From: Caballeronia sp. dw_19
Lineage (GTDB): Bacteria; Pseudomonadota; Gammaproteobacteria; Burkholderiales; Burkholderiaceae
DNA: 64,000 nt
NCBI RefSeq assembly: GCF_018449515.1
Contig: NZ_JAAVUQ010000037.1
Span: forward strand, 1-64,000
Direction of reading: 5' to 3'
Below, in pieces: positions 9,860-29,338 of the stretch. The translations under genes were made by a program, and so were the position numbers. A model generated the notes under the pieces. It was not told the DNA's origin. It saw only the letters and a program-made list of their open reading frames with translations, and made no database searches. Positions within the stretch are counted from its first letter, which is position 1, and the number at the start of each line of letters is the position of its first letter.

Positions 9860-10288
9860 TCACGTGTTCTGAAGCTCGATACCGGTTTCGGCACACCACT
9901 GGCGCAGCGCTCGTTCGGCAGCGTCAGCTTCAAATCCATACCACTCCTCAAGTACACCGCACGATTCGAGCAAATCCTTGAACCGCGAGTACGCGCCTTG
10001 CCGCTGGAAAAATCCGTAGACCTGCGTGTACCGGTCAGGCAATTGCTCTGCGACAAAGCTCAGCGCGAGATCACGTCCAAGCTCAAGATCGGTCTTGTGC
10101 GGTATGGCGACGTAACGGTCCGAGACTTCAAGATCATCGGGAACATCGTCGTCAAGCCCGTCGGTAACCTCGGATGTCCAATAGATTGCGCCCGTATCCA
10201 GGGATATATACGCGCTGTGCTCTGTCGGCGCGGCAGCGCCAATGAACTCGAACGCCAGAATTAGATCTTCGTACTTAACCGTCACCAT
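9860..10288 (-). CDS. UPF0158 family protein
   Basis: Small soluble protein of 142 aa resembling the UPF0158 family of unknown function. The N-terminal part (residues about 1-50, YISLDTGAIYWTSE) and the central DRYVAIPHKTDLELGRDLA stretch are typical, followed by YSRFKDLLE and WYGFEADAAERALRQWC. The start at ATG 10288 is preferred because GGGAG lies 7 nt upstream; a longer frame runs into the IS6 remnant and is rejected. It sits between two transposase relics, so it may have arrived with, or survived, insertion-sequence activity. Confidence 0.75.
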   Translation of the reverse strand: MVTVKYEDLILAFEFIGAAAPTEHSAYISLDTGAIYWTSEVTDGLDDDVPDDLEVSDRYVAIPHKTDLELGRDLALSFVAEQLPDRYTQVYGFFQRQGAYSRFKDLLESCGVLEEWYGFEADAAERALRQWCAETGIELQNT

Positions 10289-10323
10289 AGCTGTGCTCCC
10301 AACTGTATCCCGTCGAAGGCGGA

Positions 10324-10340
10324 GGTTTTGTCGCGATAAA
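10324..10340. repeat. Candidate terminal repeat of an IS6-type element
   Basis: GGTTTTGTCGCGATAAA, about 40 nt past the transposase stop, resembles the GGnnCTGTnGCAAA ends of IS6-family elements. The matching end is not seen, as expected if the other side is deleted. Confidence 0.4.
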
Positions 10341-10379
10341 GCCATCTTGATGAGCAGACCCGAAATGACAAAGGACTGC

Positions 10380-10877
10380 TCATCTAACCATAGAATAAAA
10401 CTGCTCGGCGGAGGAAGGATGGGTGCCAATCTCGGTTTTTATCTGCCCCTTCCTGATCATATGCATTACTTCGATACCGGACAGGATGATGCGGGCGCAA
10501 CGAAGATCCTTGAAGCCCAACGTCGGTCGGGTGATGCGTTTGATGGCTCGATGGTCTTGCTCGACCACGTTATTCAGGTACTTGACTTGACGGATCGTGA
10601 TGGGTGTCTCCCGCTCGGCGTTCACCGCGTGCAGCGTAGCCAGATTAGAGCCGCTTTTGTCGAGGATTATCGTCTCGGGTACACCGTTCCGAGCGATCGG
10701 CTTTTTAAAGAAGCGCCGCGCTGCCACCTTGTCGCGCGTGGCTCTGAACAGGAAATCAATGGTTTTGCCCGCCTTGTCCACCGCCCGATAGAGGTACTTC
10801 CACTGGCCTTTGACTTCAATATACGTTTCGTCAATCCGCCAGCTCTTGCCTACCGGCTGCTTGTGCCTACGGGACAT
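10380..10877 (-). pseudogene. IS6-family transposase, N-terminally truncated
   Basis: The 165-aa frame carries the DDE core of an IS6/IS26-type transposase: first Asp in WRIDETYIEVKG, second Asp in IILDKSGSN, Glu in NVVEQDHRAIKR. Full-length members are about 230-240 aa; the N-terminal helix-turn-helix portion (about 65-70 residues) is missing and upstream DNA is unrelated. It is therefore almost certainly inactive. It abuts the zinc dehydrogenase at 11035, so the insertion may have brought or disrupted that gene's upstream region. Confidence 0.85.
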
Positions 10878-11034
10878 TGGGGCTCACTGGGGGCTCACTG
10901 CAACTGCAGCAAGTGCTGGACCCGCCCGATACCGTTTTCATTTGGGTATTGGGAGAGCGACGCTCAGGCGCAGCCGTTGCTACGGCGTTGCTATCGATAA
11001 CCACGTTGACACGAATGCCACCAGGGAGCCAGCG

Positions 11035-12243
11035 ATGAAAGCAGTCGTCTTTAAAGGAATTGGCGATATCTCACTCGATACCGTTTCCGACCCCACGTTG
11101 CAGCAGGATAACGATGCCATCGTACGACTCACGTCGAGCGCAATCTGCGGCACGGATTTGCATATGATTCGTGGCACGCTTGGCGGCATGGTGCCGGGTA
11201 CGATCCTGGGTCATGAAGGTGTGGGCGTAGTGGAAGAGGTGGGCAAGGGCGTGCGCAATATCAGGCGAGGTGATCGCGTGCTCATTCCATCCACCATTTC
11301 GTGCGGCTTTTGTTCGTATTGCCGCTTCGGCTATACCGCCCAATGTGATGTAGCGAACCCGAACGGCCCGAGCGCCGGCACTGCGTTTTTCGGGGGTCCG
11401 AAATCGACTGGCCCCATCAACGGCTTGCAGGCGGAATACGCGCGCACACCATTCGCCAATGCGAGCCTGATCAAGTTGCCCGACAGTATTGACGACGACC
11501 GCGCGATCCTGATGTCCGATATCTACCCGACCGGCTTCTTCGGCGCGCAACTCGCGGAGGTTTCGCTCGGGGATACGGTAGCCGTATTCGGAGCCGGTCC
11601 GGTGGGACAGTTCGCCATTGCGAGCGCGTTTCAGATGGGTGCCGGGCGTGTGATCGCAGTGGACCGCCTTCAGGACAGACTCGACAGCGCGCGGTCGCTC
11701 GGCGCCGAGGTCATCAACTTCGACGCCGAGGATCCCGTCGAAGCGATCATGGCGCTGACAGGCGGCATTGGCGTAGATCGGGTAATCGATGCAGTCGGTG
11801 TCGATGCGCAACATCCGGACAGCGGCCCAGCCGCTTCGGCGGATGAGAAAGAACAGGCGGAGTCCGAGAGCCGCGAGATTACATCGGAGCGGCGCCAGGA
11901 CGGCCCCAACTGGGTTCCCGGCAACGCGCCTGTCCAGGTGCTCAACTGGGCCGTGGCGGCCCTTGCAAAGGCCGGCACGCTGGGCGTAATCGGCGTATAT
12001 CCACCCAACGATCGCTTTTTTCCGATCGGCGCGGCGATGAATAAGAATCTCGTGATCAAAATGGGTAATTGCAACCATCGCTCGATCATTCCGCAGCTGG
12101 TGGAAAAGGTGCGCAACGGCTCGTTCGATCCGCTATCCGTACTGACGAACCGCGAGCCGATGATGAACGTGCTCGATGCGTATAAAGCGTTCGATGCCAG
12201 ACAGCCGGGCTGGCTCAAGGTAAAGCTCGCGGTGGACGGTTAA
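11035..12243 (+). CDS. Zinc-dependent alcohol/formaldehyde dehydrogenase family protein
   Basis: 402-aa medium-chain dehydrogenase of the group that includes glutathione-independent formaldehyde dehydrogenase. Catalytic-zinc residues are in CGTDLH and GHEGVGVVEEVG; the structural-zinc loop is CGFCSYCRFGYTAQC (residues about 95-110). The NAD-binding loop is GAGPVGQFA, followed by VDRLQDRLDSA. An insertion containing many Glu/Ser residues (around residues 265-290) matches the long form of the family. The start was chosen at ATG 11035 behind GGGAG, not at the upstream start that overlaps the IS remnant. A paralogue of the same superfamily lies at 27923. Substrate is unknown; aldehyde detoxification is plausible. 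Confidence 0.87.
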   Translation: MKAVVFKGIGDISLDTVSDPTLQQDNDAIVRLTSSAICGTDLHMIRGTLGGMVPGTILGHEGVGVVEEVGKGVRNIRRGDRVLIPSTISCGFCSYCRFGYTAQCDVANPNGPSAGTAFFGGPKSTGPINGLQAEYARTPFANASLIKLPDSIDDDRAILMSDIYPTGFFGAQLAEVSLGDTVAVFGAGPVGQFAIASAFQMGAGRVIAVDRLQDRLDSARSLGAEVINFDAEDPVEAIMALTGGIGVDRVIDAVGVDAQHPDSGPAASADEKEQAESESREITSERRQDGPNWVPGNAPVQVLNWAVAALAKAGTLGVIGVYPPNDRFFPIGAAMNKNLVIKMGNCNHRSIIPQLVEKVRNGSFDPLSVLTNREPMMNVLDAYKAFDARQPGWLKVKLAVDG

Positions 12244-12746: not shown

Positions 12747-13733
12747 TCACACGGGCACAGCTAGACCCAGCCGCCCCGCCGCTTCTTGCGTAAAACGATG
12801 GAAATAACGCGCTGTGCGATTCAGGCCTTCGTCGAGTCCGGTTTCCGGTTTCCATCCTAGTGTGTCGATTGCAAACGTGATGTCCGGTTGCCGATGACAA
12901 GGGTCGTCCATCGGCAATGGCACGAAGACGATCTCCGACCGCGACCTCGTCAGCTCGATAATTCGCCGTGCGATATCCAGCATCGACAACTCATGCGGAT
13001 TACCGAGGTTCATCGGACCCGTTATGCCTTCAGGACTGTTCATCAAGCTAATGAACGCGTCGATCATGTCGTCCACGTAACAGAATGACCGTGTTTGCAA
13101 ACCGTCGCCATAGATCGTGATCGGCTTGCCCTCAAGCGCCTGCATCATGAAGTTGGAGATCACCCGGCCATCGCATGGGTGCATCCGTGGGCCGTAGGTA
13201 TTGAAGATCCGCGCGATCTTGATTGACAAGCCATGTTGTCGCCGGTAATCCACGAACAACGTCTCCGCGCAGCGCTTGCCTTCGTCGTAGCACGCCCGCG
13301 GCCCCAGCGGATTTACATGACCCCAGTAGTCCTCCTTTTGCGGGTGAACAAGGGCGTCGCCATAGACCTCGCTGGTCGAGGCCTGAAATATTCGCGCCTT
13401 GACGCGCTTGGCCAGACCGAGCATGTTGATCGCACCATGCACACTCGTTTTTGTGGTCTGAACCGGATCATGTTGATAGTGAATCGGCGAAGCGGGGCAG
13501 GCCAGATTATAGATTTCATCCACTTCAACGTAGAGAGGGAAAGTCACGTCGTGACGCATGAGCTCGAAGTTCGCGCAGTCCAGCAAATGCGCGATGTTGT
13601 CTTTCGTGCCCGTGTAGAAGTTATCCACGCATAAGACGTCGTGCCCTTGCGCCACCAGGCGCTCGCACAGGTGCGACCCGAGAAAGCCGGCACCGCCGGT
13701 AACAAGAATGCGCTTGCGATGATGCTCTTTCAT
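12747..13733 (-). CDS. UDP-glucuronate decarboxylase (UDP-xylose synthase)
   Basis: Extended SDR enzyme converting UDP-glucuronate to UDP-xylose (328 aa). The Rossmann loop is GGAGFLGSH at residues 13-21; the catalytic Tyr149 and Lys153 lie in CYDEGKR; Ser/Thr and Glu come from the ASTSEVYGD segment; and [12 protein letters not shown] is typical of the family. It is the last gene of the ten-gene minus-strand glycan operon, 25 nt after a GT4 gene. In this context it should supply a pentose donor for one of the four family GT2/GT4 enzymes. A dTDP- or UDP-sugar 4,6-dehydratase is less likely because of the UXS-type YDEGKR motif. Confidence 0.87.
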
Positions 13734-13758
13734 GATGGCTCTCCAGGTTTAATTGCAG

Positions 13759-14718
13759 TCAACTGCTCACCTGACGCAGCGTTTCGTTCCAGTCGCGCAC
13801 GAAGCGGTCGATGTGAAAGCGGTCCATGGCGACCTTGCGTGCACCGTTACCGAGCCCTCGAGCTTCATCCGGATCGCGCAGCAGACGCTGCATCGCGTGG
13901 ATCAGCGCGCTCACGTCCGTGCCGATATACCCGCTCTCGCCGTTGCGGATGACGGTCGCGAGTTCGGTGGTCGCGAGTCCCACAATCGGCATGCCGATCA
14001 TCATGGCTTCTACGACGGCGAGCCCCAGGCTGGTCCAGCGAATCGGGTTGAAAAAGAAACGATAACTCGCGCTGAACGCCGCAAGATCCAGATTGCCGAT
14101 CTCGCCGATACCCCCAGCGGACGTTGCATCCATGCCGACAAGATCCAGCGGAACGTGTGCTTTCACGTTTGCATAGACGTCGTCGCCCAGACGCCGTCCG
14201 CGTTGCCTGAGATGGTTGATGACAACAATCCCGCGTGCCTTCTCGCCGGTGTGACGCACGCCTTCGGGAACGATCACGCCATGCTCGATCACCCGCGTCG
14301 GCGTGGTGCCGCAGTCCCACATCAGCTGGTTGAAATGCGTGACATGAACCAGCAGCGTGTTGGCGTCGTCAACCCAGTGGCGTTGTTCGTATGCGTTTTC
14401 CTGCGGCGGGTCATGTTCTATATACACACGTGGCAGGCGGCGTTGTGTTTCGCTAAGCAGATTGAGACGGTCGTCGTCCCATTGCGCTTTATGTTGGAAC
14501 AGAATGACGTCGAATTCCTGAGACGCAACCTTATCTACCGGTAGTTCGTGAACGTTATTACCCCAGGGCAGGACGCCAACCGTGCCTGCGTAACCCGGTG
14601 GATGACCGGACTTCGTCACGAGATAGAAGTCGTGATGCGCTTGCGTGAGGTAATACAAATAATTGCCATGGACGTGCCAGGTCAGCACGCGCAGGCGTCG
14701 GGAGGGGTTATTCGACAT
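13759..14718 (-). CDS. GT4-like glycosyltransferase
   Basis: 319-aa glycosyltransferase-like protein with a GT-B fold. The C-terminal donor-binding half holds NPIRWTSLGLAVVEAMMIGMPIVG, the E-x7-E type region of family 4, followed by NGESGYIG. The N-terminal half starts LRVLTWHVHGNYLYYL. It begins inside the end of the preceding GT9 gene (11-nt overlap), showing coupled translation. Sugar and acceptor are unknown; it acts in the cytoplasm on a growing glycan, by context. Confidence 0.78.
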   Translation of the reverse strand: MSNNPSRRLRVLTWHVHGNYLYYLTQAHHDFYLVTKSGHPPGYAGTVGVLPWGNNVHELPVDKVASQEFDVILFQHKAQWDDDRLNLLSETQRRLPRVYIEHDPPQENAYEQRHWVDDANTLLVHVTHFNQLMWDCGTTPTRVIEHGVIVPEGVRHTGEKARGIVVINHLRQRGRRLGDDVYANVKAHVPLDLVGMDATSAGGIGEIGNLDLAAFSASYRFFFNPIRWTSLGLAVVEAMMIGMPIVGLATTELATVIRNGESGYIGTDVSALIHAMQRLLRDPDEARGLGNGARKVAMDRFHIDRFVRDWNETLRQVSS

Positions 14719-15790
14719 GACTCATCGCCCGGTAAGCGTTGTCCGCTGCGTCGCATCCGTCTGACACGTGCATGAGTTGCTCGAACGCGGCGTCCATGAC
14801 CTGTTTGACGCCTATGTTTAGGGCGCACGGATGCCCGTACGGGCAGTCACGGAACGCGCATGGTCGGCATGGTGGATAGTGAGCAAGTATCCGGTGCCGC
14901 TCGCTGTCCAGTGGCGCCCATCTTTTGGTGTCGCTGCCCAACGCGATCACCACGCTCCGTGTTTTCATCGCAGCAGCGACGTGCGACATGCCGGTGTCGT
15001 TACATACAACAAGCCGTGCCTTCGATACCAGCGCAGCCAGGCCTCCAAGCGATGTCTTGCCGGCGAGATCGACCGCTCGTGCGTTTGTCGCGAGCGCGAT
15101 GCTCGACGTGAAGATGCGTTCGGCTACGGTACCGGTAATCGCGATCTGCCAGCCATCGTCGGCAAGCAAGGAAGTGACTCGAGCGAACCGATCAGCCGGC
15201 CACCGGCGTGACGGCAACTGCGCGCCGGGGTGAACGAGGATGAGTCGATCGGAACACAGCGCGAAGGTGTTCATCAGCGCTTCGCATTCGGCACGGTCAT
15301 TGTTGCTTAGCGGAACCTCAAGGCTGCTGTCTTGCGTCTCGATGCCCATAGCGTTCATCAACGCGGTATAGCGCAGGATCTCCGGCAGCGTGTCCGGCCA
15401 GCCAATGAAAATGCCGTCCCTAAGCGCTTCACCGGATTGTATAAATCCGGCATTGGCGCGCGCTCCCATTTTCCCGGCAATATCGTTCGCAATGCCGCCG
15501 CTTCCATGCATCTGTATCGCGAGATCGAAACGACGTTCGCGCATGGCGTTCCAGAAGCCTTCGAGATGTTCGTTTGTCTCCGCTTGCTCGGGAAATCCGA
15601 CTGCGCCGGGAAAGATGATCAGTTCATCGACGAGATGCGGGTAGCGCTCCACGAAACTTCGCGCCCACGGAAGACCGATCAAGGCTATGTGCGCATCGGG
15701 CTTTGCTCGTCGTAAGGCGCGCAGCGCAGGCACGGCACATAACATGTCGCCGAGTTGAAGCGCGCGGAAGATCGCGATCTTCTCGCTCAT
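14708..15790 (-). CDS. GT9 heptosyltransferase-like protein (second in operon)
   Basis: 360-aa GT-B enzyme of family 9, which transfers heptose from ADP-heptose in LPS core synthesis. It begins IAIFRALQLGDMLCAVPALRAL, has the HPGAQLPSRRWP donor-site motif and CNDTGMSHVAAAM near the C-terminus, and a Cys-rich stretch (PPCRPCAFRDCPYG). The start at 15790 is set by the ATGA overlap with the upstream GT2 gene and by homology; the longer frame is rejected. It is the second GT9 in the operon, suggesting at least two heptose or heptose-like residues in the product. Confidence 0.87.
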   Translation of the reverse strand: MSEKIAIFRALQLGDMLCAVPALRALRRAKPDAHIALIGLPWARSFVERYPHLVDELIIFPGAVGFPEQAETNEHLEGFWNAMRERRFDLAIQMHGSGGIANDIAGKMGARANAGFIQSGEALRDGIFIGWPDTLPEILRYTALMNAMGIETQDSSLEVPLSNNDRAECEALMNTFALCSDRLILVHPGAQLPSRRWPADRFARVTSLLADDGWQIAITGTVAERIFTSSIALATNARAVDLAGKTSLGGLAALVSKARLVVCNDTGMSHVAAAMKTRSVVIALGSDTKRWAPLDSERHRILAHYPPCRPCAFRDCPYGHPCALNIGVKQVMDAAFEQLMHVSDGCDAADNAYRAMSHVE

Positions 15791-16854
15791 AAGAAAAACA
15801 CCCTGAACTTGAACGCACCATAGAGGCGCCAATAGATGGAAAGAAACGGAATAAGTACCGATGTACATGCCATTTCGATCACGTGGGCGGGTGCGCGGGA
15901 CGTATCGGATAGCCGTTTGACGCAGAACCACGCGGTCATCGCAAGCCACGCCGCGGCTGCATAGCCCGCTATACGCGCATGGCCCAATACCGCGGCGCAA
16001 AACAAAATGACCACGGCAATGACGATGGCGTAATACAACAATGGGGGCCCGCGTCGAATACGGCGCTTGTACAACAGTGGGTATTTTTTATAAAGCAGCG
16101 CGTCAAACTGACTCTTCTTTTGCTGCGACAAACTCACGCCCCAGCGTGCTGGCCGTACCGGATGCAGGACGATGGCGTCGTCTGCGCGAGCGATCGGAAA
16201 GCCGGCTTCCATGAGGCCAAATTGCAAATCGGAATCCTCGCGCCACGCCGATGTAAAGCGCGCGTCAAACCCGCCGATTCGTTCAAGTGCCGCACGATCC
16301 ATAAACGCGTTGGCGGTCGCGAACTCCGCGTGCGCGAGGCCTGCAGCGTCGGTTTCATAGTCCGTGGGACGGCTCCCGAGCGGCACGATGATACGGCCCG
16401 ATACCGCGCCAGCGCCTCTTGCTAGCGCTTTCACCCCCGACGATAACCAACGCGCGTCCGGCTGGGTATCGTCGTCGGTGAAGGCAATGCTTGCCGCACG
16501 CGAGAGCCGCCATCCGGCGTTGCGCGCGCCCGCCGGGCCTTGCGTTGCCGTCACCGGTACATAGTGCACGCACGGCCCGTTCGCCGCGTGTTCCCGCGAG
16601 ATACGCTCAACGCTGGCGCGAGTCGCATCGTCGGGGCCGTCGTCGCAGACAATAATTTCGAAGCGAGCCGGATCGTAATCCTGCGTCAGCAGCGACGCGA
16701 GGCAGCGTTCGAGCATCGCCGGTCGGCGGTAAGTGGGAACAACCACGGAGATGTCGGGCGTCCGGGCTATGGGCGAATCGATTGCGTTCGCGTCAGCTTT
16801 ACTATGGAACTCGTCGAAGGCATCTGCCGCAAGCGCGCTCATAAATACGCTCAT
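15787..16854 (-). CDS. GT2 glycosyltransferase with C-terminal membrane segments
   Basis: 355-aa family 2 glycosyltransferase. The GT-A domain begins ISVVVPTYRRPAMLERCL and contains the DDG and DDD-type metal motifs (VCDDGPDD, FTDDDTQPD), then WREDSDLQFGL as the catalytic-base region. Two hydrophobic helices near the C-terminus (around YYAIVIAVVILFCAAVLG and AAAAWLAMTAWF) anchor it to the inner membrane. The start at 16854 overlaps the carbamoyltransferase stop by 4 nt (ATGA). Its own stop overlaps the next GT9 start in the same way. Confidence 0.86.
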   Translation of the reverse strand: MSVFMSALAADAFDEFHSKADANAIDSPIARTPDISVVVPTYRRPAMLERCLASLLTQDYDPARFEIIVCDDGPDDATRASVERISREHAANGPCVHYVPVTATQGPAGARNAGWRLSRAASIAFTDDDTQPDARWLSSGVKALARGAGAVSGRIIVPLGSRPTDYETDAAGLAHAEFATANAFMDRAALERIGGFDARFTSAWREDSDLQFGLMEAGFPIARADDAIVLHPVRPARWGVSLSQQKKSQFDALLYKKYPLLYKRRIRRGPPLLYYAIVIAVVILFCAAVLGHARIAGYAAAAWLAMTAWFCVKRLSDTSRAPAHVIEMACTSVLIPFLSIYWRLYGAFKFRVFFL

Positions 16855-18596
16855 ACCCCCACTCCATTTTTTTCGATCAGGAACGAGCCGATCACCAGTG
16901 CATCGAGCGGCGAGGTCCAGAACGATTCGAGCGCGTCGCGCGGCGAATTCACCATGGGCTCGCCTCTGGTGTTGAAGGATGTATTGACCAGGATGGGCAC
17001 GCCGGTGCGTCGCCTGAACGCATCGATAAGGTCGTAGTACAGCGCATGCTGACGGCGATTCACCGTTTGCACTCGTGCGGTCCCATCCACATGACGAACT
17101 GCCGGGATATGCTTTTCCTTGGCCGGGCGCACATCGAAGATGAACAGCATGAACGGCGCCACGCCGCCATCCACAAACCACTCGTTCGCGTAATCTTCCA
17201 TTACCACCGGCGCGACGGGCCTGAAATCCTCACGATCCTTGATCTCGTTGAGCCTTGCCTGCATGCGCGGATCGATAGGCGAGGCAAGGATCGAGCGTGC
17301 GCCGAGCGCGCGCGGCCCGAACTCCGTGCGGCCTTGATACCAGCCGATCACCCGGTTGGACGCAAGGATCTCCGCTGTTTCGCCGGCCACATCCCGGAGG
17401 CGACGGTAAGGCGCTTTGGTCCATTTCAAGAGTTGCTCGATCTCGTCATCCGCATACCCGGGGCCGAGGTACGCGTGGTCCATCTGCCACCGGCGCGAGC
17501 GGTCGCCGGATTCGGCGCGCTTGCGATAATCGATCCATAGCGCTGCGCCGAGTGCCGTGCCGGCATCACCGGACGCCGGTTGCACCCATACCTGGGCGAA
17601 CGGACCACGGTCCCGCACGCGTGCGTTCATCACGCAGTTCAATGCCACGCCGCCTGCCATCGCCAGATTTTCCAGGCCGGTTTGCGCATGCAGCCAGCCG
17701 GCAAGCTGCAGCACCGTTTCTTCCAGTGTGACCTGCAATGAATGCGCAATATCGAAGTGCTTCTGCTCGAGCGGCCCACCGCGTTCGCGTGCTGGCCCGA
17801 AGCGTTCAACGAGGCGCGGAGCATCGACCGTATAAGTGCCGTCATGCCGGTATCTCACGATCTCCCGGAACGCGTCGACATAGGCAGGCTTGCCGTACGA
17901 CGCCAGCGCCATCACCTTGTATTCGTCGGAGGAGTGAAGAAAACCCAGGTAGCCGGTCACGCTCTCGTACAGCAGCCCGAGCGAATGCGGCAACTCGACC
18001 TGCTTGAGCCGCTTGTATTCCCCATCCACGAATTGCCCAAGACTTGTCGTTACGCCTTCGCCGCGGCCGTCCATGGTCAGCACCGCCGTGTCCGTGAACG
18101 GCGCGGCGAGAAACGCACTGGCCTCATGCGAAAGATGATGGTCCACGTAGTGCCACTCGAAGCGCATCGTACGGCCGCCGCTGCGAAAGCGTTTCATCAG
18201 ATGATGCGGCGCACCGTCTGTCAGTTGTGCTCTCGCATTTACGATATAGCTTAAAAACAAGGGGTCCCAGGGCGAGTCGGAGGGATTGGCAAGCGGCTTA
18301 AGCCCGGGTTCGAGCGGCAGCTCGATCGATGCCCCCGCATTCGCGGGCATCGAGGAAAGCAGCTTTGGGTCGTACGAATACGCGACGTGATCAATATCAG
18401 CGAGCTCGATGCCGGCCTCTTTGAGACAGTAGTCAATCGCATCGAAGGGTAGTTGCCAGGTTGAGAAAGGCACCGGCCGCTTCGCGTGCTTGATATGCGT
18501 GAAACGCTCGTCCTCGGCCGCCGCAATGACGACGCCATCCTCGATCAGCGCAGCCGCGCTGTCGTGGTAAACCGCGTTGATGCCTAATGTGTACAT
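16851..18596 (-). CDS. Carbamoyltransferase, NodU/CmcH family
   Basis: 581-aa enzyme transferring a carbamoyl group from carbamoyl phosphate (through carbamoyl-AMP) to a hydroxyl, here presumably of a sugar. The N-terminal Kae1-like domain starts YTLGINAVYHDSAAAL and has the DHHLSHEASAFLAAPF metal-binding histidines and LTMDGRGE. The C-terminal half contains GWYQGRTEFGPRALGARSIL, HVDGTARVQTV and LVNTSFNTRGEPMVNSP, all diagnostic. Length is normal. It lies within the glycan operon, 28 nt after a GT9 gene and overlapping a GT2 gene by 4 nt, so carbamoylation of the operon's glycan is the likely role. Confidence 0.93.
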   Translation of the reverse strand: MYTLGINAVYHDSAAALIEDGVVIAAAEDERFTHIKHAKRPVPFSTWQLPFDAIDYCLKEAGIELADIDHVAYSYDPKLLSSMPANAGASIELPLEPGLKPLANPSDSPWDPLFLSYIVNARAQLTDGAPHHLMKRFRSGGRTMRFEWHYVDHHLSHEASAFLAAPFTDTAVLTMDGRGEGVTTSLGQFVDGEYKRLKQVELPHSLGLLYESVTGYLGFLHSSDEYKVMALASYGKPAYVDAFREIVRYRHDGTYTVDAPRLVERFGPARERGGPLEQKHFDIAHSLQVTLEETVLQLAGWLHAQTGLENLAMAGGVALNCVMNARVRDRGPFAQVWVQPASGDAGTALGAALWIDYRKRAESGDRSRRWQMDHAYLGPGYADDEIEQLLKWTKAPYRRLRDVAGETAEILASNRVIGWYQGRTEFGPRALGARSILASPIDPRMQARLNEIKDREDFRPVAPVVMEDYANEWFVDGGVAPFMLFIFDVRPAKEKHIPAVRHVDGTARVQTVNRRQHALYYDLIDAFRRRTGVPILVNTSFNTRGEPMVNSPRDALESFWTSPLDALVIGSFLIEKNGVGV

Positions 18597-18624
18597 GGGT
18601 TGATGGCCCTGGTGACGAAGCGTT

Positions 18625-19794
18625 TCATGAGGTGGTCAGCATTGCGTCGACGGCGCTCGATGCAGAATCGGCACGCAGCAGTCGCATGGTTGCATCGATT
18701 ACCTGTCCTACCGTGACGCCGGTAAGACAGGCATGATGTCCTTCGGGGCATACGCTGCGATAACACCATCGGCAAGGCACGTCGTGATGCAGGACGACAT
18801 GCGGCGTTTGCCACGGCGTATGTTGCGGATTCGTCAACGCGTACAGGTCGACCACCGCGGTACCGAGCGCCGACGCTATATGCACAGGCCCGCTGTTGTT
18901 CGATACCAGCACCTTGGCGCGATCGATCAGCGCTGCCAGCTCGCCGAGTTCGAGCGCGCCTGCGAGATTGATGGCCGACCGGTGTGCCCCGCATGCCTGC
19001 GCACACACGCCCGCTTCGTCTGCACTGCCGGTGATCAGTACCGGCCAGCCGGTCAGCTCCGAGAGCTGCGCGGCGACCTGTGCGAAGCGCTCGGCAGGAT
19101 AGCGCCGCGACGCGGCCGTGGCGCCGGGATGCATCACAATGAACGGGGCATCGAGCGAGATACCGCGCTGCGCAAGCTTGAGGTGCAACGACGCGGCATC
19201 GCGGGGTAGCACGTTTAAACGCATTCGCTGATTCGATGACACTGCGCCCACGTGCCTGACCAGCGCCAGTTGCCGTTCGACTTCATGCCGTGTACCGGTT
19301 TGCGGTTCGGGCTCGGCAATCCAGTCGGTTAATAGTGCATAGGGATTCTCGCGGCAGTGCGCGAGGCGTCTTGGAATGCCGGCTAGATGACACAGCATCG
19401 CGGCGGGCATCGGGTTCTGGCTATAGACGGTAAAAATCACGGCAGCGTCGAAAGCTTCTTCGCTCAGGCGTTTGGCGATCGCCAGGTCCACAGCCGCATC
19501 GGCGGGACGGTTGTTTTTCACCCACGGGGCGTCGTATTCGATCACCGCATCGACACTATCGATAAGCGCTGCCGCGCGTGCTCCGGAATGCGATGCCAGC
19601 AACGTGATGTGGCGATCAGGTGCCGAGCTACGCAAGGCGTGCAGGGCGGGGGTGGTCATGAGCACGTCGCCAAGGTTGTCCAGGCGCACGCAGAGGATGC
19701 GTTTGAGCTCGGCGCCCCACGGCCGTACCGACGTGGCTGCAGGCGCACGGGCATGCGAATCGACGTCGATCCGGACCACCGGCGTGTGCGTCAT
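18625..19794 (-). CDS. GT9 heptosyltransferase-like protein (first in operon)
   Basis: 389-aa GT9 enzyme with a 30-residue N-terminal extension. The core begins ILCVRLDNLGDVLMTTPALHAL, with MHPGATAASRRYPAERFAQV for the ADP-sugar site and VSNNSGPVHIASALGT near the C-terminus. It starts within the stop of the HAD phosphatase gene (ATGA overlap), an arrangement that fits delivery of heptose intermediates to a heptosyltransferase. It is clearly diverged from the second GT9 of the operon, so the two probably add different residues. Confidence 0.88.
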   Translation of the reverse strand: MTHTPVVRIDVDSHARAPAATSVRPWGAELKRILCVRLDNLGDVLMTTPALHALRSSAPDRHITLLASHSGARAAALIDSVDAVIEYDAPWVKNNRPADAAVDLAIAKRLSEEAFDAAVIFTVYSQNPMPAAMLCHLAGIPRRLAHCRENPYALLTDWIAEPEPQTGTRHEVERQLALVRHVGAVSSNQRMRLNVLPRDAASLHLKLAQRGISLDAPFIVMHPGATAASRRYPAERFAQVAAQLSELTGWPVLITGSADEAGVCAQACGAHRSAINLAGALELGELAALIDRAKVLVSNNSGPVHIASALGTAVVDLYALTNPQHTPWQTPHVVLHHDVPCRWCYRSVCPEGHHACLTGVTVGQVIDATMRLLRADSASSAVDAMLTTS

Positions 19795-20402
19795 GTCGTG
19801 AGCTCCGGTCGAATGCTGTGTCGAATCGTCAGCGCTGCGTCATGAAGGTTGGCTACCACGCAGTACGGTTGCCGAAAGAGTCCCCGACGCCACACGGTCT
19901 CGTTGCCGTTATCGATGAGGAGCGTGCGGCAACCGGCGCGATTGCCTGCCTCGACATCATCGAGAATGTCGCCGGCGAACCAGCTTTCTTCGAGTGCGAT
20001 CCCGTGTTCACGAGCGGCGCGCAGCAGCATGCCCGGCGCCGGCTTGCGGCAATTACAGAGCCGGTTATGAGGGGCAACGCTGCCGTCGGGATGATGCGTG
20101 CACCAGTAGATGCCGGACAGCATCGCGCCACAGTCGCGGACGAGTTCGTGCAGGCGCTTATTGACAATATCCAGCGCATCGATTGAAAATTTTCCCATCG
20201 CCACCCCGCTTTGATTGCTGATCACATAGAGCGGCAGGTCGAGCTCCGCGAAGATCCGCAGCGCGTCACACGCACCGGGCGCGAGCCGCATCAAGAGCGG
20301 ATCGACGTTATGTGGAACATCGGCGAGCAGCGTTCCGTCCTTGTCGAGGAAGATAGCGGGGCGCCGCATGGTGTTACTGCGCGCGCGTATCCGGAACGTC
20401 AT
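19791..20402 (-). CDS. HAD-IIIA phosphatase, GmhB-like
   Basis: About 200-aa HAD-IIIA phosphatase resembling GmhB, which removes the 7-phosphate (in the family: D,D-heptose 1,7-bisphosphate) during ADP-heptose synthesis. Motif I is FLDKDGTLL, motif II SNQSG, and a zinc loop follows with CTHHPDG and CNCRKPAPGML; motif III is AGDILDDVEAG. The start at 20402 gives an ATGA overlap with the upstream GT4 gene, matching the operon's other junctions; 20369 is an alternative closer to the first motif. Presence of a dedicated copy here suggests an operon-specific heptose supply. Confidence 0.85.
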   Translation of the reverse strand: MTFRIRARSNTMRRPAIFLDKDGTLLADVPHNVDPLLMRLAPGACDALRIFAELDLPLYVISNQSGVAMGKFSIDALDIVNKRLHELVRDCGAMLSGIYWCTHHPDGSVAPHNRLCNCRKPAPGMLLRAAREHGIALEESWFAGDILDDVEAGNRAGCRTLLIDNGNETVWRRGLFRQPYCVVANLHDAALTIRHSIRPELTT

Positions 20403-21703
20403 ACGGAAGCCCCACCGGTTGCGAGCCAAGCGTCGTGCACGTTGTTATACGCATGCCGTGCTGCATCGGCGGCCACGTCGATCCCGGCCACGCGTGCATA
20501 GACTTCACTGAGTGTGTCCGCCACGCTTTCCCACGTGAACATCTCCTTGGCGCGCGCGAGCCCTGCTGCGCCCATGCTTTGTGCACGCTGCGGGTCGCGC
20601 TTGAGCGTGACCAAGCCGTGGGCGACGGCGAGAGGGTCTTTCGGCGGCACGAGCAATCCGCTCTCGCCATGCGCTACCGAATAACGAATGCCGCCAACGT
20701 TCGCGCCGATCACCGGCGTGCTGCAGGCCATCGCTTCCAACGGGGTAATGCCGAATGGTTCGTACCAGGGCGTCGTGACGAATACGTCCGCCGCGTTGTA
20801 GTAAAGACGCAGGTTCGCACGTGCTCGACGGCCGAGGAAATTGACGCGATCCGTTACGCCGCATTCACGTGCAATGACGCGCAAGCGGCCGATCTCGGGC
20901 GTCGCGATCTCGTTGGCTTCGTCGGAGTTGCCACCTACCACATAGAGATGGGCTTCCTCGCCAAGCGCGCAGTTACACAAGCCAATGGCACGTACCACCG
21001 TGTCGATACCCTTGCGCGGCACCATCCGTCCCAGTTGCAGCGCGATGAAACGGTCCAGCGGCCAGCCCAGTTCCGCGCGGGCAGCGTACTTGTCGACAGG
21101 GTGAAATTCCTCGTGGTCGAAACCGCAGGGCACAACGTCGATACGACCGTTATCCGCTTGATAGAGCGAGACCAGATCCGATTCATCCTGCTGGCACTCG
21201 GCGATCACCGAGTCGGACTCGCGCACGAGCCTGTCCTCGATGTCGAAGCGCTCGTCAGGGAAACCATCATCTGCGCCCTGATGCAGGCGCCGTACGCGAC
21301 CAAGCGCATGAAAGGTCGTCACAAGAGGAATGCCAAGCGATTCCTTCACACGCAGACCGACCAGTCCGGACATAAAGAAGTTGGCGTGCACGACGTCGTA
21401 GCGTGATGGTTCATGACGGAAAAATTGGACGACGAAACGCGCGAAGTCCTCCATGTACGGAAGGAGTTGCTCCTTCGGCAACTGGCGTTTCGGGCCAGCC
21501 GGTACATTGATGACACGTACCCCGTTCAGGCGCGAGACAAGCGGCAACAACGACTTGTCGCAACGCGTGAAGACGTCGACGTGGTGACCTTTTCGGGCAA
21601 GCTGACGTGCGACGTTCGCGACATAGATATTTTGACCGCCGCTGTCGACGCTGCCGGTAGCGGCGAGCGGCGACGCGTGCTCGCTGATGAGTGCGATCTT
21701 CAC
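20399..21703 (-). CDS. GT4 glycosyltransferase
   Basis: 434-aa family 4 glycosyltransferase of the sucrose-phosphate-synthase-like type. It begins KIALISEHASPLAATG with SGGQNIYVANVARQLARKGH, and the donor site shows VGGNSDEANEI, then PWYEPFGITPLEAMACSTPVI (split by me for brevity) and SGLLVPPKDP. GTG at 21703 is preferred as start because AAAGGA lies 8 nt upstream and homology begins there; ATG at 21748 or 21757 would add a poor leader. A 191-nt gap separates it from the preceding GT2, the only sizeable gap in the operon, which could hold an internal promoter. Confidence 0.87.
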   Translation of the reverse strand: MKIALISEHASPLAATGSVDSGGQNIYVANVARQLARKGHHVDVFTRCDKSLLPLVSRLNGVRVINVPAGPKRQLPKEQLLPYMEDFARFVVQFFRHEPSRYDVVHANFFMSGLVGLRVKESLGIPLVTTFHALGRVRRLHQGADDGFPDERFDIEDRLVRESDSVIAECQQDESDLVSLYQADNGRIDVVPCGFDHEEFHPVDKYAARAELGWPLDRFIALQLGRMVPRKGIDTVVRAIGLCNCALGEEAHLYVVGGNSDEANEIATPEIGRLRVIARECGVTDRVNFLGRRARANLRLYYNAADVFVTTPWYEPFGITPLEAMACSTPVIGANVGGIRYSVAHGESGLLVPPKDPLAVAHGLVTLKRDPQRAQSMGAAGLARAKEMFTWESVADTLSEVYARVAGIDVAADAARHAYNNVHDAWLATGGASV

Positions 21704-21894
21704 AGTGGTGTCCTTTGTCGACGAGTCTTGGTATGCGGTGGCGCCCATGATCAACATCGGCGTGCATCACACACAGCATTCGTTGTGCCCATTGGGAAGC
21801 GAACGAAACAAGCGTCGGTTCGTTGCCATACCTACGCATTTTTTTTGCGTGCGCTTCAAGGACGCCGGACAGCGGCTATTGGGCTTGTGAAGAA

Positions 21895-22860
21895 TTACAT
21901 CGGGTGCGTAGACGCGTCAGGGCCGGCGTCGCCCGTGTCGTCGATCGCTTGCGAGCGACGTACGGCCTCCCGCATTTGCTCAACTTCAAGCGGAATCGCG
22001 CGACGCCGGGTCAACGCCCACGGCAGTGCAGCGAACAACGCCAAGGCGTCGCGAAAAAAAGAACCTTCGCGGCGCATGACGTGCACTGCGGCCCGTGTGG
22101 CGCGCCACCCTTCGCCCCACGACAAGCGCATCCATGCAACCCACGCGGCATTGCGGGCGAGCAGTCGACGCCGGAGCGCGCTGTCCCGCAGCGGGGAGGG
22201 ATGGTGATGGACGATCAATTCTTCGGCGTACACAATGGCGAAGCCGCATGCGAGCACATCGAGTGAGGCCAGCGTTTCTTCGCCGCCGATAAAAAAGCGC
22301 GATTCGTATCCGCCTATCTGCCGATAGAGCGGCGTTCTGAACACACAGGCCCCGGCCATATACCCGATCAGTGAAGGGCCGGGCAAGCCGGCGGCGTCAA
22401 GCGGGCTGCGTGCCATCAGCCGGCAGGTCGCGTCGGTGTCGCCTGCTTCGCCGACCAGCACCCGGGCGCTCAGCACGCCGACACGGGGTGACTGGTCCAA
22501 CAATTGGACCGCGCGCGATAGCGATCCCGGATGCCACCACGTGTCGTCATCGCAGAATGCAACGTACTCCGTACTCGCGCTTGCGACGCCGAGGTTGCGT
22601 CCGGCTGCACCAAGGTTTTTCTGTGCGGTAATGAGGGTGACCCCGGGGAAGCGCTCGGCAATATGTTCCGCAGTGGCATCGGTCGAGCCATTGTCGACAA
22701 CGATCAGACGCGCTCGGTCAGGTAGCGCGCTCAGTCGCGCGAGGGTCTCGAGCACTTGCGCCGAGCGGTTGTACGTCAGCACGACGACCGATATCTTCGG
22801 AGGTGCATCCGCGGCCGGCCGGCCGTCCCCTGGGGCGTCGTCGTTCTTCACGTTCCTCAT
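21895..22860 (-). CDS. GT2 glycosyltransferase
   Basis: 321-aa soluble GT-A enzyme of family 2. The nucleotide-binding start is ISVVVLTYNRSAQVLETL, with VVDNGSTDATAEHI and FCDDDTWWHPGSL for metal binding. No C-terminal membrane segment is evident. It begins at 22860 with an ATGA overlap on the PIG-L deacetylase gene. The sugar it adds is unknown. Confidence 0.86.
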   Translation of the reverse strand: MRNVKNDDAPGDGRPAADAPPKISVVVLTYNRSAQVLETLARLSALPDRARLIVVDNGSTDATAEHIAERFPGVTLITAQKNLGAAGRNLGVASASTEYVAFCDDDTWWHPGSLSRAVQLLDQSPRVGVLSARVLVGEAGDTDATCRLMARSPLDAAGLPGPSLIGYMAGACVFRTPLYRQIGGYESRFFIGGEETLASLDVLACGFAIVYAEELIVHHHPSPLRDSALRRRLLARNAAWVAWMRLSWGEGWRATRAAVHVMRREGSFFRDALALFAALPWALTRRRAIPLEVEQMREAVRRSQAIDDTGDAGPDASTHPM

Positions 22861-23558
22861 GCCGCTAGCTCAAGCTTCCAACAGCGTTCGGTACAAAAGA
22901 CATCGTCGTAGCCATCAGGTCCGAACGCCTTGAGCTGGCTTGCGTACGCTTTGACGGCTTCGCGTTTCGCGGCCTGATGGGACGGATCGGCTCGCCAGTT
23001 CTCAATGACCGGTGTCGCGGTGATGCCGCGCGAAACGAGCTCCGCCATGCGTATTTGCAACTGGCCGGCCAGACGCCGGTAGAGAGCGTCCTCATAAGCG
23101 AAGCAGACCAACTCCGGGTTGGCTAGCCAGACATCGGTGCATGCGCGATGCACGAGTTCGTGGTCGGAGTGGAACAAGCCGAGGGGGATCATGAGCGTAC
23201 GAGCCCCGTGGCGGTGCAGCGACCGATCGAGCGCCTGGGCGATCGCGTCCTGAGTCGGGGCATGCGCGGGCAGTGCAAACGGAACATATTGTGCATCGAG
23301 AAAATCCCCTCGATCGGGCACCGCACTCAGGACATCCAGGGCGCGGCGGTTTTCCAGCGAGCGTTCATGCATTGCGTGAGCGGCGTTATCGAAGCCGCAC
23401 TGGCGGTCCCACTTCGTCATGACATCTGCGGCGGGGCAGCCGGAGAAGACGGTGTAAACGACTGCTCCCGGATGAGCGGCGAGCGTCGTTCCGCAACTGA
23501 AGACGGCGTCGTCGAAATGCGGTGACATCACCAGTGGACGAGCAAGGGTATCGGACAT
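22857..23558 (-). CDS. PIG-L family deacetylase
   Basis: 233-aa zinc-dependent LmbE/PIG-L-type enzyme that removes an N-acetyl group from an amino sugar. The metal motif is SPHFDDAVFS near residue 12 (family form HPDD; here His-Phe-Asp-Asp) and a later SDHELVHRACTDVW segment supplies a further histidine. It is the first gene of the glycan operon, and its start lies 36 nt after a strong hairpin terminator of the upstream gene. It probably deacetylates a GlcNAc-type residue of the operon's glycan or lipid intermediate. Confidence 0.85.
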   Translation of the reverse strand: MSDTLARPLVMSPHFDDAVFSCGTTLAAHPGAVVYTVFSGCPAADVMTKWDRQCGFDNAAHAMHERSLENRRALDVLSAVPDRGDFLDAQYVPFALPAHAPTQDAIAQALDRSLHRHGARTLMIPLGLFHSDHELVHRACTDVWLANPELVCFAYEDALYRRLAGQLQIRMAELVSRGITATPVIENWRADPSHQAAKREAVKAYASQLKAFGPDGYDDVFCTERCWKLELAA

Positions 23559-23594: not shown

Positions 23595-23619
23595 AAACGC
23601 GGACCTGGGGTCCGCGTTT
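23595..23619 (-). terminator. Intrinsic terminator between the membrane-protein gene and the glycan operon
   Basis: An 11-bp perfect stem (AAACGCGGACC / GGTCCGCGTTT, 3-nt loop) is followed on the minus strand by TGCGTTTTC. It lies 56 nt after the 151-aa gene and only 36 nt before the PIG-L start, so any read-through into the glycan operon must pass it. Confidence 0.75.
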
Positions 23620-26007: not shown

Positions 26008-26036
26008 CTTGAAAATTTCCAACAATGTTCTATTTT
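26008..26036 (+). promoter_or_regulatory. Candidate heat-shock (sigma-32) promoter
   Basis: CTTGAAA at 26008-26014 matches the sigma-32 -35 box. A weak CTATTTT at 26030-26036 lies 15 nt later where the -10 is expected. It lies about 120 nt upstream of the tandem hsp20 genes, which fits known RpoH control of this family. The -10 match is poor. Confidence 0.4.
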
Positions 26037-26159
26037 CGATTCCGTAAGCAGTCGCGGTGTTCGCGCTGCGTGTTTCGATTGGTTTGTCCGAGGCTTGGGC
26101 AGACGAACTGGAGCGCGTATGCCGGTTCGTCTCCTGCCGCAATTTGGGAGATAGCAGCC

Positions 26160-26594
26160 ATGAGTGACCTTCTTTTCAATAACAGCCTGTTTGATGAGCT
26201 CGACCGTTTTCAGCGTCAAATGTCGTCGTTGTTCACCGGCCTGCCATCAAGCATCCGCGCGTCGCGGCTAAACGGCTTTCCGCAAATTAACCTCGGGAGC
26301 ACGGACGACTCCGTAGAGATTGTCGCGTTTGCGCCCGGGATCGATCCGGCCAAACTGGAACTGACCGTGGACAAGGGGTTGCTGACCATCAGCGGCGAGC
26401 GTGCGCGTGTCGAGTCCCAGTCGGAAGGACGTTCTTATGCGCAAGAACGCTTTGCCGGCGCCTTCCGCCGCGCAATCGAGTTACCGCGCGATGCCGACCC
26501 GGACAACGTGAAGGCGCGCTACGCGAACGGTTGCCTGACGATCAGTATTGGCAAGCGTGAGACGTCGCGCCCGCGCACTATCGCAATTCAATGA
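26160..26594 (+). CDS. Hsp20/alpha-crystallin family small heat-shock protein
   Basis: 144-aa ATP-independent holdase chaperone binding unfolding proteins in the cytoplasm. The alpha-crystallin domain spans about residues 40-140, with DSVEIVAFAPGIDPAKLELT, GLLTISGER and the closing ARYANGCLTISIGKRE, including the conserved G-x-L motif (GCLTI). The start at ATG 26160 is set by GGGAG 11 nt upstream; the longer frame starting at 26025 is rejected. It is the first of a pair, 31 nt before the second Hsp20 gene. Confidence 0.9.
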   Translation: MSDLLFNNSLFDELDRFQRQMSSLFTGLPSSIRASRLNGFPQINLGSTDDSVEIVAFAPGIDPAKLELTVDKGLLTISGERARVESQSEGRSYAQERFAGAFRRAIELPRDADPDNVKARYANGCLTISIGKRETSRPRTIAIQ

Positions 26595-26625
26595 CCAACC
26601 CGTCACCTCATTGGAGGAGAGCATC

Positions 26626-27033
26626 ATGAATACTCAGACCCAGCTCGCCGAACGCAATACCGGCACTGTCGCGCGCAACGGTGACACACAGGCGCAAAAG
26701 GGTCCCGCGATCGTTCCTGCCGTCGATATTTACGAGGACGCGCATGGCATCACGTTATGGGCCGATCTGCCGGGCGTATCGCGGGACCGGTTGAACGTCC
26801 ACGTACAGGACGGCAATCTCTTCATTGAAGGCCAGGCGTCGATCGACACACCTGACGGCCTGCGCTTGCATCACGCGGAGATTCGCGAGCCACGTTTCGC
26901 CCGAGCATTTTCATTGAGCGCGGACTTCGATATTGCGAAGATCGATGCCAATCTTAGCGACGGCGTGCTTAAACTCAGCATTCCGCGCCGAGAGGAAGCA
27001 CGGCCGCGCCGCATTGAAGTCAGCGTTGGATAA
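26626..27033 (+). CDS. Hsp20/alpha-crystallin family small heat-shock protein (second copy)
   Basis: 135-aa small heat-shock protein, with crystallin domain at about residues 30-130 (IYEDAHGITLWADLPGVSRD, GNLFIEGQ, LSDGVLKLSIPRRE). GGAGGAGA precedes the ATG by 6 nt. It is diverged from its upstream neighbour, as is common where two Hsp20 subclasses form hetero-oligomers. It shares the operon with that gene and probably with the 128-aa gene at 27110. Confidence 0.9.
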   Translation: MNTQTQLAERNTGTVARNGDTQAQKGPAIVPAVDIYEDAHGITLWADLPGVSRDRLNVHVQDGNLFIEGQASIDTPDGLRLHHAEIREPRFARAFSLSADFDIAKIDANLSDGVLKLSIPRREEARPRRIEVSVG

Positions 27034-29092: not shown

Positions 29093-29338
29093 CGGACGCG
29101 CACCGGTGGCTCACGGTCGCGGTCGGCCGGAAGTCGTGTCGTTATACAGGGTGGGACTACAAGCTGTCAGGCCAGCGTAGCGGAGTTATTAAAAATGAGT
29201 CAATATTTAACTCCGTCTTTGCCATTTTCGGCGTCGGCGCACTTTCTCAACCGATGCTCAACGACGTCGGGAGCGGATCGACACAAGCCTGTGTCGTGGC
29301 CATGCCTGCGCTTACGGCCCGAAAACAGAAACTCACGG

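Follow-up and report, generated by a model that had tools for sequence, protein, structure and literature searches.

In Streptomyces coelicolor, the cwg ('cell wall glycan') operon comprises 12 genes (SCO6179-6190). In the portions of the published reports available to us it is described as partly sigma-E dependent, vancomycin induced and part of the cell-envelope-stress regulon (PMC6767563), with a first gene that is activated by salt (PMC13011467). In 2019 its product was still merely a predicted cell wall glycan (PMC6767563), and the literature searched, as far as accessible, yielded no account of the chemistry of that product. A second point of reference is WapO of Pseudomonas, a putative carbamoyltransferase of the LPS core.

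Here we analyse a cluster on a 64,000-nucleotide stretch from Caballeronia sp. dw_19 (the window), in which ten ORFs (A-J) fill positions 12747-23558 of the minus strand (Table 1). Five junctions (A/B, C/D, D/E, F/G and G/H) are ATGA overlaps and the H/I junction is an overlap of 11 nt, while gaps of 137 nt (B/C), 28 nt (E/F) and 25 nt (I/J) separate the other genes. The TTG that opens the longest ORF of gene D is not its start, which lies at 20402 or 20369, and genes G and H start at 16854 and 15790; the family searches used D as 195 aa from 20378 and H as 359 aa. The ten genes, their overlaps and the gene families listed by a first-pass annotation were all borne out. Its description of a ten-gene operon held for the colinearity, with an order that recurs in other genera; transcription as one unit is putative, and the A-B set lies 137 nt from C.

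Table 1 Predicted genes and leader element of the cluster.
Feature	Position	Strand	Details
Gene A: PIG-L family deacetylase	22857..23558	-	233 aa, or 223 aa with later start
Gene B: GT2 glycosyltransferase	21895..22860	-	321 aa; PF00535 90 bits
Gene C: GT4, MshA / sucrose-phosphate-synthase group	20399..21757	-	452 aa
Gene D: GmhB-like HAD phosphatase	19791..20402	-	203 aa; 192 aa if started at 20369
Gene E: GT9 glycosyltransferase, actinomycete cwgE group	18625..19794	-	PF01075 115 bits
Gene F: O-carbamoyltransferase (NodU/CmcH-type), actinomycete cwgB group	16851..18596	-	581 aa
Gene G: GT2 glycosyltransferase	15787..16854	-	355 aa; PF00535 94 bits
Gene H: GT9 glycosyltransferase, actinomycete cwgJ group	14708..15790	-	360 aa; PF01075 113 bits
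Gene I: GT4 glycosyltransferase	13759..14718	-	319 aa; PF13692 45 bits
Gene J: UDP-glucuronate decarboxylase (UDP-xylose synthase, UXS)	12747..13733	-	328 aa
11-bp perfect inverted repeat, leader upstream of gene A; membership in locus uncertain	23595..23619	-	

Motifs could be read directly in the A, D, F and J proteins. Gene A carries PHFDD and HSDH, slightly exceeds the PF02585 cut-off (30.2 versus 28.2 bits) and is weakly similar to glycopeptide deacetylases. Gene D, with DKDGT, CTHHP and CNCRKP, matches a D,D-heptose 1,7-bisphosphate phosphatase in the PDB (E 4e-28) and remains below the TIGR00213 cut-off (107.5 versus 149.6 bits). Gene F matches PF16861 (232 bits) and PF02543 (215 bits) and, in the PDB, novobiocin-type carbamoyltransferases as well as GdmN and TobZ. 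Gene J combines UXS-level similarity (human UXS1, E 7e-124) with the SDR catalytic motifs SEVYG and YDEGK, which identifies it, as far as sequence goes, as a UDP-xylose synthase. Gene C scores below the cut-off of TIGR03449 (311.8 versus 462.5 bits), and its PDB matches include Tll1590 (242 bits) and 3c48 (229 bits). A strong hydrophobic segment occurs only in G among the ten proteins, at its C-terminus (Kyte-Doolittle peak at residues 272-290). Family searches of the ten proteins found no polymerase, flippase or ligase, as the first-pass annotation had stated, and likewise no lipid-carrier initiating enzyme, no Kdo, lipid A or heptose kinase genes, and neither GmhA nor HldE. The lack of an initiating enzyme, polymerase or ligase, together with the confinement of the hydrophobic segment to G, means that the acceptor could be soluble. 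Elsewhere, the host genome encodes an HldA-type kinase that scores above its cut-off and a second GmhB-like protein that scores below.

The closest gene sets were found in actinomycetes. A Streptomyces plasmid locus (L108) consists of 12 genes in a row, with homologues of nine of the ten window genes (all but PIG-L) and with GmhA- and HldE-like genes, so that the earlier remark that no named pathway with exactly this set was known is not supported in view of cwg. The S. coelicolor sequence lay outside the comparison, and L108 served as a stand-in for cwg on the grounds of how many genes it has, how they are ordered and how the published names fit them: its positions 5 (GT9), 8 (SIS, GmhA-like) and 9 (HldE-like) fit the published cwgE, cwgH and cwgI, whereas cwgD, published as a 'putative dehydratase', fits poorly with its HAD phosphatase counterpart. 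Domain II of the L108 HldE-like protein lies above its cut-off (184 versus 181.5), while the GmhA-like protein (148 versus 209) and the kinase domain of the HldE-like protein (114 versus 345) lie below. L108 holds two homologues of gene B (43-46%), and the actinomycete cluster genes match C at 41-43% and I at 32-36%. A Nonomuraea locus has homologues of eight window genes, without A and B. Partial sets occur in Streptomyces fungicidicus (J, F, GT2, GT4, SIS and HldE, with no GT9 or HAD match) and in Arthrobacter (D, E, H-type, I, C and HldE, with no F, G or J match).

Phylogenetic trees placed E with the actinomycete cwgE counterparts (clade 100/98), H with the cwgJ counterparts (96/91) and F with the cwgB counterparts (100/99). 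The host WaaF and WaaC-type genes fell outside the E and H clades, on long branches of the GT9 tree, and NolO fell outside the F clade; the actinomycete members of both trees came from species other than S. coelicolor. Judged by these comparisons, the cwg operon is the nearest known system to the window cluster. We consider it probable that the cluster is a Gram-negative counterpart of cwg that builds a heptose- and carbamoyl-bearing envelope-stress glycan distinct from the LPS core.

The grouping of E, H and F with actinomycete genes, apart from WaaC/WaaF and NolO, makes it unlikely that the cluster serves to modify the LPS core or outer core, with the GT9 enzymes adding heptose to lipid A-core and F carbamoylating it in the manner proposed for WapO. 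The score of E, which lies above the cut-off of the NCBIfam model of LPS heptosyltransferase II (TIGR02195; 142.3 versus 134.6), speaks for such a role, as does the Pseudomonas core region, which, in the part of the description available, has a PIG-L gene and a carbamoyltransferase gene together with a pair of heptosyltransferase genes (PMC8005017). However, H falls below the same cut-off (109.8), the ten genes include none for lipid A, Kdo, ligase or heptose kinase functions, and F, at E 1e-150, was present in 57 of 160 family genomes and absent from the other 103. The GT9 tree indicates that E and H are not WaaC/WaaF orthologues, with the long outside branches to be kept in mind, and an LPS-core origin was rejected as first choice on this tree. 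Gram-positive actinomycetes are not known to have LPS. The grouping of the GT9 enzymes with theirs, apart from the host WaaC/WaaF, weakens the core-like oligosaccharide offered by the first-pass annotation.

A diffusible or cytosolic product that forms no surface glycan, be it a glycoside for secretion or a stress oligosaccharide that stays soluble, appears quite improbable, even though several features agree with it. Gene C falls in the MshA / sucrose-phosphate-synthase group, whose known members, to our knowledge, use soluble acceptors; F resembles antibiotic carbamoyltransferases, and hydrophobic segments are few. In addition, genes for a GT9, a carbamoyltransferase and HldE stand in an apparent natural-product cluster on two plasmids of Streptomyces (L129 and L130). 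Yet no scaffold builder (NRPS, PKS and the like) is found among the ten, the F-type protein of L129 does not join the cluster clade, and cwg is assigned to the cell-envelope-stress regulon in the available portion of PMC6767563. L129 and L130 were rejected as cwg-type clusters, sharing only distant F- (34%), GT9- (24%) and HldE-type genes. A Tsukamurella locus was also rejected as a relative, as it shares the C-type GT4 alone, going by annotation.

The search for the same gene order in other genomes, proposed with the first-pass annotation, showed that it recurs in other genera. Among 54 named loci, which include contig fragments and some loci with only a related carbamoyltransferase, the order ABCDEFGHIJ was kept in 10, CDEFGHIJ was colinear in 31 and DEFGHI in 37. 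This recurrence puts the gene set, on this comparative evidence, beyond chance. A and B shift position independently of the remaining genes, and the locus is best described from gene order as an eight-gene core (C-J) with a two-gene module (A-B). That unrelated sugar genes became colinear by accident is highly improbable: the mobility of A and B, and the detachment of C and J in some loci (L081, L082 and L103), would fit a loose collection, but the synteny contradicts it and the actinomycete homologues are also clustered together.

In Caballeronia udeis, the closest named relative found for the host, only ~35 residues of D still match; the nine remaining genes are conserved at 79-94%, and C. 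udeis keeps a further GmhB-like gene. Among 34 gene A leaders, the palindrome upstream of A is the same only in the window and C. udeis, where a 10-bp hairpin has the loop of the window and an altered stem; seven other leaders carry unlike palindromes.

The 'stress-gene region' of the first-pass annotation holds locally, with two tandem HSP20 genes at 26025-27033, and only in part across genomes. Of the 57 F-bearing genomes, at least 2 have HSP20 genes no further than 20 kb from F (1.4 expected) and at least 12 have BON-domain genes there (4.3 expected); both are lower bounds from near matches selected by eye, and the relatives among these genomes are not independent. A general HSP20 linkage, not above chance in the 57 genomes, was rejected. 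The accessible parts of the literature on the Burkholderia low-oxygen-activated locus do not name the window cluster.

A linked accessory is an ABC exporter that carries a fused receiver domain. By matches to its last 297 residues it was counted by hand in 48 of the 57 cluster-bearing genomes and in none of the 103 others, the ABC part being putative in the counted genomes. Of the 48, 44 have open frames of at least 898 aa (one of them, G084, with an internal stop), and four (G116, G147, G156 and G213), with frames of just 150-334 aa, were included for their proximity to F. Nine F-negative genomes (G083, G095, G102, G162, G170, G178, G193, G199 and G206) gave matches over the receiver half only, in frames of 668-860 aa, which were set aside as presumed other proteins. 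Fisher's test on the association ignores relatedness. The host of the window has no such fusion, and a 951-aa ORF at 49602-52457 was rejected as the exporter, being a regulator with an AAA domain. The titles and abstracts listed contained no published Gram-negative cwg and no published ABC-receiver fusion, the latter search being narrow and its result weak.

It is probable that Burkholderiales and actinomycetes produce similar sugar chains, heptose-containing and carbamoylated but different from ordinary LPS, in line with the heptose-type carbamoylated glycan first suggested from the sequence. The following scheme, with its donors, its sequence of steps, its acceptor, its export and its role in stress, is inferred. 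A short oligosaccharide would most likely be assembled in the cytoplasm, with E and H transferring heptose from ADP-heptose, supplied in Gram-negatives by the chromosomal LPS pathway and in actinomycetes by the operon's own GmhA, HldE and GmhB-like enzymes. J would make UDP-xylose as a pentose supply, the GT2 and GT4 enzymes would attach further sugars, the PIG-L enzyme (A) would remove an N-acetyl group and F would attach the O-carbamoyl group. The product would probably be displayed at the surface and act as an envelope-stress glycan, a role transferred from what is published on how cwg is regulated. Export of this shared glycan, in most Gram-negative carriers, by a new kind of transporter, a phosphorylation-gated ABC-receiver fusion, is a tentative and rather doubtful extension. 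The transporter would comprise an Atm1-like ABC exporter, a degenerate histidine-kinase-like module and a catalytically complete C-terminal response-regulator receiver, and a kinase acting in trans would phosphorylate the receiver and so gate export, suggesting an unusual direct coupling of two-component signalling to transport.

The gene families of cwg, long known in Streptomyces as a vancomycin-induced sigma-E target, are now seen in Gram-negatives, which provides a second kind of organism for identifying the product. The Gram-negative clusters lack heptose-precursor genes, which their hosts own for LPS, and this predicts the donor sugar. Caution is needed where automatic annotation may call E-like genes LPS heptosyltransferase II although they lie outside that clade.

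Bleomycin-type carbamoylated disaccharide pathways also bring GT9-like and carbamoyltransferase genes together, but the window's ten genes include no peptide or polyketide scaffold genes. F belongs to the same protein superfamily as the rhizobial NodU and NolO (~40% to NolO), yet scores 198 against a NodU cut-off of 1000, and no nod genes occur among the ten, so neither score nor neighbours indicate Nod factor carbamoylation. The Pseudomonas WapO core locus (PA5000-PA5012 / PSPTO_4983-5003) resembles the window cluster in its heptosyltransferase pair, carbamoyltransferase and PIG-L gene, but differs in having WaaC/WaaF, heptose kinases and core-specific glycosyltransferases; a UXS and an MshA-group GT4 are not mentioned in the accessible part of the description, by which alone it was compared, WapO lying outside the trees (PMC8005017). 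With cwg, by way of L108, the window cluster shares a co-located carbamoyltransferase, GT2, GmhB-like HAD phosphatase, two GT9 and two GT4 enzymes and a UXS-type epimerase of the J family, whereas cwg has GmhA- and HldE-like genes, no PIG-L gene, another gene order and a Gram-positive host.

The 78,121-base contig that holds the window as its bases 1-64000 belongs to a genome of 9.06 Mb. The ten genes reported by the first-pass annotation, with their five ATGA overlaps and one 11-nt overlap, were all seen in the window together with intergenic gaps of 137, 28 and 25 nt, and the cluster is real. Pfam, NCBIfam and PDB searches backed the family assigned to each gene: A is a PIG-L protein, B and G are GT2 and C and I GT4 proteins, D is a GmhB-like HAD protein, E and H are GT9 proteins, F is an O-carbamoyltransferase and J is a UDP-xylose synthase. 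A, D, F and J each carry the motifs of their families. The nearest named relative found for F is that of Caballeronia udeis (93%). A perfect inverted repeat lies upstream of A; the hairpin in the C. udeis leader of A keeps the loop unchanged and differs by paired substitutions in the stem, and among 34 leaders only these two have the repeat.

Positions of the cluster, its neighbours and related features
Feature	Sequence	Position	Strand
Genes A to J, lettered in transcription order	window	23558 down to 12747	minus
11-bp inverted repeat	window	23595-23619	
Two HSP20 genes	window	26025-27033	
Hybrid histidine kinase	window	29195-31750	
Remnant of D, C. udeis	L049	8560-8830	
Double cluster copies (L040-L043), genome G005	contigs C19, C11		
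Double cluster copies (L040-L043), genome G021	contigs C34, C6		
ABC-receiver fusion	L105	19875-22538	
ABC-receiver fusion	L104	7632-10322	
ABC-receiver fusion	L103	10019-12763	
Partial ABC-receiver match, B. cenocepacia	L106	about 10056-11519 and onward	
Radical SAM to HldE gene row, Streptomyces plasmid	L129	5184-16330	
Radical SAM to HldE gene row, Streptomyces plasmid	L130	5195-16914	

In a first survey, F was present at ≥80% identity in 16 of 37 genus genomes, host counted, one match being partial at a contig end and one containing an in-frame stop; two genomes hold two full ten-gene copies each. At E 1e-150 or better, F occurred in 57 of 160 family genomes. A named genome collection supplied 54 loci, among them contig fragments and wider carbamoyltransferase-family members without the cluster. 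Of these, 31 keep CDEFGHIJ colinear, 37 keep DEFGHI and 10 keep ABCDEFGHIJ, and all ten genes are present, order disregarded, in 28. Hosts include Caballeronia, Paraburkholderia, Trinickia, Ralstonia, Cupriavidus, Chitinasiproducens and Pigmentiphaga. A and B are frequently inverted or placed elsewhere, and Burkholderia multivorans and B. cenocepacia have A-B and C-J as nearby but separate units, so that C to J form the natural unit, to which A-B is added as a movable module. Close relatives of F, at 59-72%, were also seen in MAGs that carry the labels Wolfebacteria, Planctomycetes, Pedobacter and Ktedonobacteraceae (L070, L078, L085, L094, L099 and L102), which may be misbinned contigs or recent transfers.

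The nearest known relative of the cluster is the cwg ("cell wall glycan") operon of Streptomyces coelicolor, of which Hong et al. 2002 is reportedly the founding paper. In a GT9 tree of 43 rows, with long branches flagged among the outside rows and one cwgJ-type row, E and its Gram-negative relatives grouped with actinomycete cwgE-type genes (support 100/98) and H with cwgJ-type genes (96/91). In a 33-row carbamoyltransferase tree, a 100/99 clade united the 17 F rows from Gram-negatives with three cluster genes of actinomycetes; NolO, on a long branch, and the other 12 sampled carbamoyltransferases fell outside it. The three genes are therefore concordant in their grouping with actinomycete genes. 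The host's WaaF (L001) and two WaaC-type genes (L002 and L003), which NCBIfam names with scores of 471, 403 and 313 bits, lie outside both the E and H clades; that the cluster serves LPS-core synthesis is possible but less likely.

GmhA- and HldE-like genes lie inside the actinomycete operon, whereas they are missing from the Gram-negative cluster. For the HldA-type kinase and GmhB steps, the host has genes elsewhere: the kinase scores above its cut-off, and the second GmhB-like gene below. E and H would take ADP-heptose as donor. In C. udeis, D is a remnant of about 35 matching residues, while identity is 79-94% for the other nine genes and a different GmhB-like gene is retained. In this one genome, the loss fits supply from the LPS pathway; the remnant could also represent early decay.

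A frequent neighbour of the cluster is a protein of ~890 aa in which the membrane and ATPase domains of an ABC transporter are followed by a receiver at the C-terminus, as assigned by Pfam scan of two members and by sequence clustering and alignment for the others. Of the 54 named loci, 30 contain a member of at least 800 aa. By hand count, its C-terminal part was matched in 48 of 57 F-bearing family genomes and in none of the 103 F-less ones (Fisher's p 5e-32, relatedness ignored), on the same contig as F in 47 of the 48 at 3.3 to 12.4 kb. A search of 72,556 plasmid records with the whole protein gave 25 matches at E 1e-100 or better, seven of them over ≥80% of its length, and all seven fall within the nine records with F at ≥66%. 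Of the remaining two, B. cenocepacia has a match over 55%; the F-bearing plasmid record of Paraburkholderia sp. FT54 is absent among the 15 ABC-receiver matches listed. At L106 of B. cenocepacia, where the match ends at ~55%, the frames are called shorter, whereas the protein is full length in B. multivorans. Across 15 aligned full-length members, the Walker A, Walker B, signature, Q and H motifs of the ABC part are invariant, as are the receiver's acidic pair, phospho-acceptor aspartate and lysine. A structure model of the last 299 residues has mean pLDDT 87.2 and pTM 0.50. Between ATPase and receiver, helices and strands alternate in a way that resembles a histidine-kinase ATPase domain, but Pfam finds no such domain in that segment, and this reading is a guess. 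The C-terminal part had no match in the window's own genome at E 1e-20; the closest ABC exporter there shows 48% identity, confined to the transporter part. We therefore treat the fusion as an accessory that is linked to the cluster type but lies outside the window's cluster.

The proposed stress-gene setting held for the window, where two HSP20 genes lie near the cluster, and was seen in part more widely: of 57 cluster-bearing genomes, at least 2 have HSP20 no more than 20 kb from F against 1.4 expected, and at least 12 have BON-domain genes there against 4.3, both counts being lower bounds read by eye from shortened lists. Eight of the 12 BON genomes come from one genus group (g35) and three from another (g27). 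The stress link is suggestive, leaning more on published cwg regulation. The cwg promoter is described as vancomycin induced and in part sigma-E dependent (PMC6767563), and cwgA as activated also by salt (PMC13011467). The Streptomyces plasmid locus L108 adjoins CBS, PP2C, STAS and ANTAR genes. A possible regulator near the window cluster is a histidine kinase of the hybrid type that contains PAS domains as well as receivers.

L108 contains 12 consecutive genes, with GT classes assigned by homology: epimerase, carbamoyltransferase, GT2, HAD, GT9, GT4, GT4, SIS (GmhA-like), HldE-like, GT9, GT2 and GT2. Homologues of nine of the ten window genes are present, A being the one missing (J 50%, F 47%, B 44-46%, C 41%, D 39%, G 38%, E 34%, I 34% and H 29% identity). 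The GmhA profile scored 148, under its cut-off of 209, and the HldE kinase domain 114, under 345, whereas the HldE nucleotidyltransferase domain scored 184, over 181.5. The Nonomuraea locus L107 has eight homologues, without A and B. Some actinomycete loci are incomplete. In S. fungicidicus L109, SIS and HldE accompany J-, F-, G- and C-type genes, and neither GT9 nor HAD was matched; in Arthrobacter L110, HldE accompanies C-, D-, E-, H- and I-type genes, and F, G and J had no match. In two further Streptomyces plasmids, radical SAM, P450, serine hydroxymethyltransferase, GT9, carbamoyltransferase, GDSL esterase and HldE genes are consecutive, a row that looks like a heptose-bearing natural-product cluster. 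S. coelicolor cwg is described as 12 genes, SCO6179-6190, predicted to synthesise a cell wall glycan (PMC6767563), with a putative heptosyltransferase fifth, a phosphoheptose isomerase eighth and a bifunctional synthase/transferase ninth (PMC5839063, PMC5882110), in agreement with the order of L108; the fourth is named a "putative dehydratase", as against the HAD phosphatase of L108, a label that we guess derives from HisB-like proteins. The product of the window cluster probably contains heptose, pentose and carbamoyl; that it is diffusible is possible but less likely. Overall, the cluster is best regarded as a variant of the cwg glycan operon carried by Gram-negatives.
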